Origin: Thiogranum sp.
GTDB taxonomy: Bacteria; Pseudomonadota; Gammaproteobacteria; DSM-19610
Assembly (NCBI GenBank): GCA_030148805.1
Contig: JASBSS010000024.1
Span: 1-64,000 of the forward strand
DNA length: 64,000 bases
Reading direction: 5' to 3'
In this document: piece after piece, positions 7,778-10,219 of the stretch
Layout of the letters: the number at the start of each line of letters is the position of its first letter
Position numbering within the stretch: the stretch's first letter is position 1
Program-made: the position numbers and the translations under genes
Notes under the pieces: model-generated
What the model saw: only the letters and a program-made list of their open reading frames with translations
What the model was told of the DNA's origin: nothing
The model's database searches: none

Positions 7778-8641
7778 TCAGGCCATCAGCTTCTTCAATC
7801 GGCCGATGGCGTTTTTCTCCAACTGTCGAATCCGTTCCGCGGAGACACCAAAACGCGCGGCCAGTTCGTGCAAGGTCGCTTTCTGGTCGCTCAGCCAGCG
7901 CTGCTGCAGAATCACCCGATCACGCTCGTCCAGCGCTTCCAGCGCCTGATAGAGACGCTCGCTGGCCTGGCCTTCCCAGTCGCTGCGCTCCAGCAGGAGG
8001 GCCGGGTCGCTACTGGTCGGCGCCTGCAGATACGCCGCGGGTGCCCAGGTGGCCTCGTCGTCCTCGCCGCTGGCCACCGGGTCGAAGGAGACGTCCTGGC
8101 CGTTGAGCCGGGACTCCATTTCCAGAACCGTCTGTGGCGCCACGCCCAGATCCTCGGCCACCGACTCGACCTCTTCGCGGCTGAACCAGCCCAGACGTTT
8201 CTTGCTGCTGCGCAGGTTGAAAAACAACTTGCGCTGGGCCTTGGTGGTGGCGACCTTGACGATGCGCCAGTTGCGCAGAATGAATTCGTGGATTTCGGCC
8301 TTGATCCAGTGGACGGCGAAGGATACCAGACGCACGCCGACATCCGGATCAAAGCGCTTCACGGCCTTCATCAGGCCGATACCGCCCTCCTGGATCAGAT
8401 CGGCCAGCGGCAGGCCGTAGCCGGTATAGCCGCGGGCGATTTTCACCACGAAGCGCAGGTGGGAGACCACCAGTTCGCGCGCCGCGTCCACGTCTTCGTG
8501 CTCGCGCAGTCTGCGTGCCAGCTCGTGCTCCCGCTCTGCGGTCAAAACCGGGATGCTGTAGACGGCCTGGAGGTACCGGTCCAGCTGATCGCTGGGGACC
8601 GGTAGGGCCATTGCGTTGGTGGTGACTAAAGCGTTACTCAT
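7778..8641 (-). CDS. rpoH: RNA polymerase heat-shock sigma factor sigma-32
   Basis: A 287-residue sigma-70-family protein with region 2 ([19 protein letters not shown]), the RpoH box [10 protein letters not shown] (about residues 137-146) that separates sigma-32 from other group members, and region 4 with a helix-turn-helix near the C-terminus ([21 protein letters not shown]). It directs transcription of chaperone and protease genes after heat or envelope stress. It follows ftsY-ftsE-ftsX as in many gammaproteobacteria, but a diguanylate cyclase gene lies between. Its leader carries a perfect CIRCE repeat, implying control by the HrcA repressor in addition to the usual mechanisms. Confidence 0.97.
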
Positions 8642-8679
8642 CGTCCACTTAACCTCTCACATCCTGCCTGGGGATCATT

Positions 8680-8706
8680 TTAGCACTCGATGACTAGGAG
8701 TGCTAA
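8680..8706. promoter_or_regulatory. CIRCE element (HrcA operator) in the rpoH leader
   Basis: The sequence has TTAGCACTC, nine bases, then GAGTGCTAA, an exact match to the 9-9-9 CIRCE consensus. It lies 39-65 bases upstream of the rpoH start codon. On the minus strand a TAAAAT hexamer overlaps its rpoH-proximal edge and could be the -10 box, so bound HrcA would block the promoter. hrcA itself is not in the window. Confidence 0.92.
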
Positions 8707-8765
8707 TCCAGGTCAAAGTTCCCCCGGTTACAGGCGCGCTGGAGATTATTTAAATAGATTAAAAA

Positions 8766-10079
8766 TCAAGCACATACCATATTTCTCCCGCGTGCCTTGG
8801 CGGCATAGAGAGCCTGATCGGCGCTGTTGAGCAGTTGGGTGAGGGTCATCTCGGGCCGGTTCTGGTTGGAGGCAACCCCGATACTCACCGTGATATTCAC
8901 CCCGGCGGGCTTGAGCGCCTCGATTTCGCGGCGCAGGCCTTCGGCACAGGAATGCGCGTTGCTGGACTGGCAGCAGGGTACCAGCACGGCGAACTCCTCG
9001 CCGCCGAAGCGCACCGCCATGGCGTTGTCCGGCAGCCGTTCCAGCAGCAGCTGCCCCAGGCTCTCCAGCACCCGGTCACCCGCGATATGCCCCAGGTTGT
9101 CATTGATCTGCTTGAAGTGGTCGATATCCAGCAGCGCCGCGGCCACCGGATAATTTCCGCGATCGGCAAGGAACTGCTCGCCGTGATCGAGCAAGTAGCG
9201 GCGGTTGTAGACGCGTGTCAGGCTGTCGGTGATGGCCAGGCGGTGCATGCTCTCGGTCTGGCGTTTGAGGGCGGCGAACTGCTGCTTGATCAGCAGCAGC
9301 GAACGGATCCGCGCCATCAGGATTTCCTCGACGATCGGCTTGGCGACGAAGTCGTTGGCGCCTGCGTGGAAGACTTCGATCTGGCGCTCGTCGGCCTCCG
9401 CTCCCGTCAATACCAGGACCGGCATTTCCTGCTGGGAATAATGGAACCGGGTACGGATGGCGTGCAGCAGGTCGCCCCCGGTGAGGCGTCCCTGAAGGAA
9501 GAAATCGGTGATCACGATATCGAAGCCTTCGTCGGCCCGCGGACCGCCGGCGGCGGTATCCTGCAACAGCTCCAGTGCCTCCTCGGCATGGGTGGTGTGG
9601 ATCACCTGGAGGCCGTGATGTTCCATCAGGCGCAGCATCAGGGTGGCGGTAAGCTGGCTATCCTCGACGTAGAGGATGCGCCCGACCAGACCGGAGTTGC
9701 GCTGCATGAAATTCTGGATGAAGCTGGCGAACGCCTGGTAGCCGAGGGATTTGTCGAAGTAGTCGGTCACGCCGGCGGCGAAACCCTCGCGCAGCAACCG
9801 GGTATCGGCATCGCCCGAGACCACGATGATCGGCGTATAGCGATGATGACTGGAGGCGCGGACATGGCGGCTGAATTCCAGGCCGTCCTTGTCGGCCAGC
9901 AGCAGCGCCGTGGTGATGAGATCGAAGCGCTGGCGCTCCAGCCAGGCGCAACCTTCCTGCACACTGCCACAGGTGGTGATTTCGGTCTCCGGCATTTCCT
10001 CGTTGAGCACGCGCACGATGATCGTGCGCGCGACCTCGGAGCTGTCGACTACCAGAATGCGATTAATTTTTCGAGGCAT
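8766..10079 (-). CDS. response regulator with two receiver domains and a GGDEF diguanylate cyclase domain
   Basis: The architecture is REC-REC-GGDEF in 437 residues, like PleD. It would make c-di-GMP from two GTP. The active-site motif is GGEEF at about residues 359-363. The second receiver keeps its phospho-acceptor (Asp192 in VITDFF), but the first has alanine (Ala58 in ITTALL) at the matching position, so it probably cannot be phosphorylated. I do not see an RxxD inhibitory site at the usual distance from GGEEF. The ATG at 10079 is preferred over an upstream GTG at 10091. The gene lies between ftsX and rpoH on the same strand, and no partner kinase is nearby. Confidence 0.93.
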   Translation of the reverse strand: MPRKINRILVVDSSEVARTIIVRVLNEEMPETEITTCGSVQEGCAWLERQRFDLITTALLLADKDGLEFSRHVRASSHHRYTPIIVVSGDADTRLLREGFAAGVTDYFDKSLGYQAFASFIQNFMQRNSGLVGRILYVEDSQLTATLMLRLMEHHGLQVIHTTHAEEALELLQDTAAGGPRADEGFDIVITDFFLQGRLTGGDLLHAIRTRFHYSQQEMPVLVLTGAEADERQIEVFHAGANDFVAKPIVEEILMARIRSLLLIKQQFAALKRQTESMHRLAITDSLTRVYNRRYLLDHGEQFLADRGNYPVAAALLDIDHFKQINDNLGHIAGDRVLESLGQLLLERLPDNAMAVRFGGEEFAVLVPCCQSSNAHSCAEGLRREIEALKPAGVNITVSIGVASNQNRPEMTLTQLLNSADQALYAAKARGRNMVCA

Positions 10080-10219
10080 TGACCCATACACCGATTTCTT
10101 GGCAATTTTTTTTGTGAAGGTACGTTACAGCCACATCCTGGTTATAGCGGCGCCTGGGGGACAGATCTTTAAGCGCTAAAAGTTGGCGTAAGTTACCGCC
10201 GTCAGGAGGTTTTTTGTGT

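Follow-up and report, generated by a model that had tools for sequence, protein, structure and literature searches.

The window analysed in this study is a stretch of DNA of 64,000 nucleotides from the genome of a relative of Thiogranum/Thiohalobacter. The open reading frame at 7778–8641 on the minus strand was identified as rpoH, which encodes a sigma-32 of 287 aa (TIGR02392, 401 bits versus a cut-off of 323), and its ATG is preceded by a likely ribosome-binding site, GAGAGG, at 8653–8658 (-). Upstream of rpoH, with 38 bp between its end and the ATG, pattern matching placed a perfect CIRCE operator at 8680–8706 (-), TTAGCACTC-N9-GAGTGCTAA, with 0 mismatches, and this was the sole match with at most 3 mismatches within the window (mean of shuffled sequences, 0.01). 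The preliminary description of this DNA had reported an exact CIRCE in the rpoH leader overlapping a likely -10 box, and both parts were confirmed, the second by TTAGCA-18-TAAAAT preceded by TG at 8706–8677 of the minus strand.

The window carries a gene for a PleD-like response-regulator diguanylate cyclase (two receiver domains and GGDEF; 8766–10091, -) between ftsX and rpoH, unlike E. coli, in which ftsX and rpoH are adjacent. Tails of a similar gene precede rpoH in some relatives of the genus.

hrcA and Other CIRCE Sites in the Genome

The rest of the genome was searched for hrcA, and one intact copy was found (PF01628, E 2e-68), adjoining grpE and dnaK. Four places in the whole genome matched CIRCE with at most 3 mismatches, namely rpoH (0), groES (0), the intergenic region of hrcA and nadK (0), and an orphan site (2), while the reversed control pattern gave 0 matches in the whole genome. 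The perfect CIRCE of groES lies directly after a TTGACT/TATTAT promoter. The CIRCE next to hrcA (G000:C33:8568–8594) lies between hrcA and the divergent nadK, and NAD kinase might share the control by HrcA. The orphan site (G000:C30:233760–233786; L005 1501–1527) precedes two ORFs, one for a small membrane protein and one similar to a peptidase of the ImmA/IrrE type, with no recognised heat-shock gene near it, and a regulon of four CIRCE copies is no more than a possibility.

Survey of rpoH Leaders and hrcA

Among the relatives, CIRCE with 0 or 1 mismatch preceded rpoH in every one of the 17 genus and family members and in 7 of 10 class members outside the family, giving 24 of the 27 leaders scanned. 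For the class as a whole, 100 rpoH leaders from 84 families were drawn from 369 genomes, which were searched for rpoH and HrcA; leaders were picked among the better-scoring rpoH matches listed and blind to the leader itself, and about four were already known to carry the combination of sites described below. CIRCE with at most 3 mismatches was found in 77 of 83 hrcA-positive genomes (39 of them perfect) and in 0 of 2000 shuffled leaders; a clear CIRCE was missing from the other 6 hrcA-positive leaders. The corresponding number for hrcA-negative genomes was 8 of 17, five of those genomes being 72–81% complete, and it was 3 of 12 when only near-complete genomes were counted. At a threshold of 2 mismatches, CIRCE was kept in 72/83 hrcA-positive versus 1/12 near-complete hrcA-negative genomes (p 1e-7), the single case in the latter group being a CIRCE with 1 mismatch. 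The rpoH CIRCE tracks the presence of hrcA across genomes. The intact hrcA, whose absence would have spoken against it, and this class-wide conservation support the earlier suggestion that rpoH is under HrcA, which would bind the site and repress the gene. One relative (L031 2383–2441) has two tandem CIRCE-like sites before rpoH, 32 bases apart.

Predicted Promoters Overlapping CIRCE

When the leaders of the relatives were aligned on CIRCE, GGAACTT stood at a constant distance upstream. This box, at 8716–8722 (-) in the window, is the predicted -35 box of a sigma-E promoter, and it is in register in 64 of the 85 CIRCE-bearing leaders of the class sample, in which GAAC begins 14–16 bases ahead of CIRCE (shuffles: mean 0.8, maximum 5). 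The predicted sigma-E -10 box, TCCTA (TCNNA), lies 16 bases past it at 8695–8699 (-), where TC closes the left CIRCE arm and CTA opens the spacer. An A at spacer position 3, as TCNNA requires, occurred in 58/64 leaders with the -35 box in register versus 6/21 without it (p 1e-7), and in only 1/20 groES CIRCEs. In a pattern scan with the gap left free (4–14), the gap was mostly 9 and in a few leaders 8 or 10. Two leaders had a gap of 5, with TC at spacer positions 3–4 and A at position 7; TCNNA is thus four bases further on, so that the promoter spacing of 16 bases is retained despite the shift of CIRCE. In a dozen other leaders a possible -10 box lies ahead of CIRCE by 7 to 20 bases, and 11 of the 85 yielded no sigma-E-like match, either in CIRCE or near it.

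The second predicted promoter belongs to sigma-70. Its extended -10 box (TGCTAAAAT, 8677–8685, -) overlaps the right CIRCE arm and extends slightly beyond it, and a possible -35 box (TTAGCA, 8701–8706, -; TTGGCA in a third of relatives) lies inside the left arm. The extended -10 box TGCTAANNT uses the right arm in 93% of leaders, and T at the third position past CIRCE was found in 79/85 rpoH leaders versus 2/20 groES leaders, the latter being a small control set mostly from one genus. The two arms have not varied equally: TTGGCA in the left arm, which is nearer to the sigma-70 -35 consensus, was present in 28 leaders versus 2 with the mirrored change in the right arm (p 2e-7). The leader of the genome's own hrcA has the T after CIRCE and lacks GGAAC.

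The composite pattern, in which rpoH itself had no part, gave 148 loci, 145 of which were directly upstream of rpoH. The genome also encodes rpoE (TIGR02939, above the curated cut-off), followed by an rseA-like ORF. Exact GGAACTT-N15-17-TCNNA sites in this genome numbered 8, versus 16 for the reversed control, and the rpoE locus had no GGAACT[T/C]-N15-17-TCNNA. Because exact sites show no genome-wide enrichment, it is the conservation at rpoH on which the sigma-E assignment depends.

The absence of enrichment and the 11 leaders without a sigma-E match would suit another reading, in which CIRCE is a real HrcA operator for the sigma-70 promoter only and some other regulator, not sigma-E, contacts the GGAAC box. 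We consider this improbable, because the -35 and TCNNA -10 boxes co-vary at a spacing of 15–17, because leaders with shifted registers, including those with the -10 box upstream of CIRCE, retain that spacing, and because the sigma-E promoter P3 of E. coli rpoH has an identical layout. We therefore favour a sigma-E promoter interleaved with CIRCE. Beyond the preliminary description, this study adds that CIRCE overlaps a conserved predicted sigma-E promoter as well as the sigma-70 -10 box.

rpoH Promoters after the Loss of HrcA

P3 is the sigma-E promoter of E. coli rpoH (PMC8103513). In E. coli K-12, GAACTT-N16-TCTGA is followed by TGATAACCT, and CIRCE is absent. P3 and the adjacent downstream extended -10 box are like the rpoH leaders described above in having GAACTT-N16-TCNNA and then a TGNTANNNT box, and unlike them in lacking CIRCE; E. 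coli also lacks HrcA. The window has the P3-type arrangement, GGAACTT-N15-17-TCNNA upstream of rpoH. Two hrcA-negative genomes, each rated 100% complete (G179 and G095), had a broken CIRCE, yet the boxes for sigma-E were still there, as was the extended -10 box, and in other hrcA-negative leaders both CIRCE and the promoter boxes were gone. Where HrcA has been lost, CIRCE decays and the promoter boxes often persist.

Proposed Control of rpoH by HrcA

In this study, we believe it very probable, judging from the sites and their conservation, that HrcA, aided by GroEL, represses an overlapping pair of sigma-E and sigma-70 promoters of rpoH, with CIRCE written over the core promoter. The -10 box of the sigma-E promoter (GGAACTT-N16-TCNNA) would span the left arm into the spacer, and that of the extended -10 sigma-70 promoter (TGCTAANNT) would start in the right arm; the two -10 boxes, together with the sigma-E start, would be hidden under HrcA bound to CIRCE. 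Studies have shown that GroEL supports the binding of HrcA in B. subtilis, C. trachomatis, and H. pylori (PMC6032397), from which we infer that free GroEL would hold rpoH down: when GroEL is free, HrcA would be active on CIRCE and both promoters blocked, and when GroEL is occupied by misfolded proteins, the activity of HrcA would drop and rpoH would be transcribed, by sigma-E polymerase under envelope or heat stress and by sigma-70 polymerase. The sigma-32 so produced would act on the chaperone genes as a further tier of control, and two of these targets, groES and hrcA-grpE-dnaK, would also be under direct repression by HrcA.

The inverted repeat could also fold in an RNA from an upstream start, and the palindrome might then be a hairpin of the rpoH leader, acting in mRNA stability or thermosensing, instead of a DNA operator. 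This seems to us very unlikely: the arms are kept as the HrcA consensus while the spacers vary, CIRCE decays upon the loss of hrcA, and the predicted starts lie inside or just past CIRCE, which would therefore act as DNA and not as an mRNA hairpin. That the rpoH CIRCE is a relic out of use in this organism is hardly credible either, as no result points that way, it is perfect like the groES and hrcA sites, hrcA is intact, and the arms are kept in relatives whose spacers and flanks have diverged.

Comparison with Known Systems

Repression of rpoH by HrcA would resemble the known HrcA/CIRCE regulon of the groE and dnaK operons. The operator is the same, the repressor gene is present in the genome, the operator overlaps predicted core promoter elements of a heat-shock gene, and it tracks hrcA. 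It differs in that the target is the gene of an alternative sigma factor and that the operator also contains a predicted sigma-E -10 box. Control of rpoH by sigma-E is textbook knowledge. The preliminary description had mentioned possible CIRCE predictions at rpoH elsewhere in proteobacteria, and a prior case does exist: a perfect CIRCE was predicted at -51 of rpoH in Geobacter sulfurreducens, which has hrcA (PMC545781, Table 8). Unlike the present case, it concerns one species of another class, and the part of that source considered here describes neither a sigma-E overlap nor a wider conservation (PMC545781).

The combined element recurs in most of the surveyed hrcA-bearing gamma- and betaproteobacteria, and the textbook model, Escherichia coli, is without it. 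Searches of an open-access library turned up no account of this element or of how widely it occurs in the class; a subscription paper, Permina and Gelfand 2003, is the likeliest place of an earlier one for beta- and gammaproteobacteria. In E. coli, HrcA is absent and control acts mainly through the translation and stability of sigma-32. We lean towards a general scheme for most gammaproteobacteria (in the GTDB sense, including betaproteobacteria): transcription of rpoH from a sigma-E and a sigma-70 promoter, with boxes that serve at once as CIRCE arms, would be gated by HrcA and GroEL, and the arrangement in E. coli would be derived, after the loss of HrcA. If so, HrcA, sigma-E, and sigma-32 would be joined at one 43-bp site across a whole bacterial class, pointing to a layer, retained by most relatives of E. 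coli, that is missing from its textbook circuit. The composite can be tested directly in cultured strains, and those that carry it include Alcanivorax nanhaiticus 19-m-6, Deefgea rivuli DSM 18356, and Arenimonas donghaensis.
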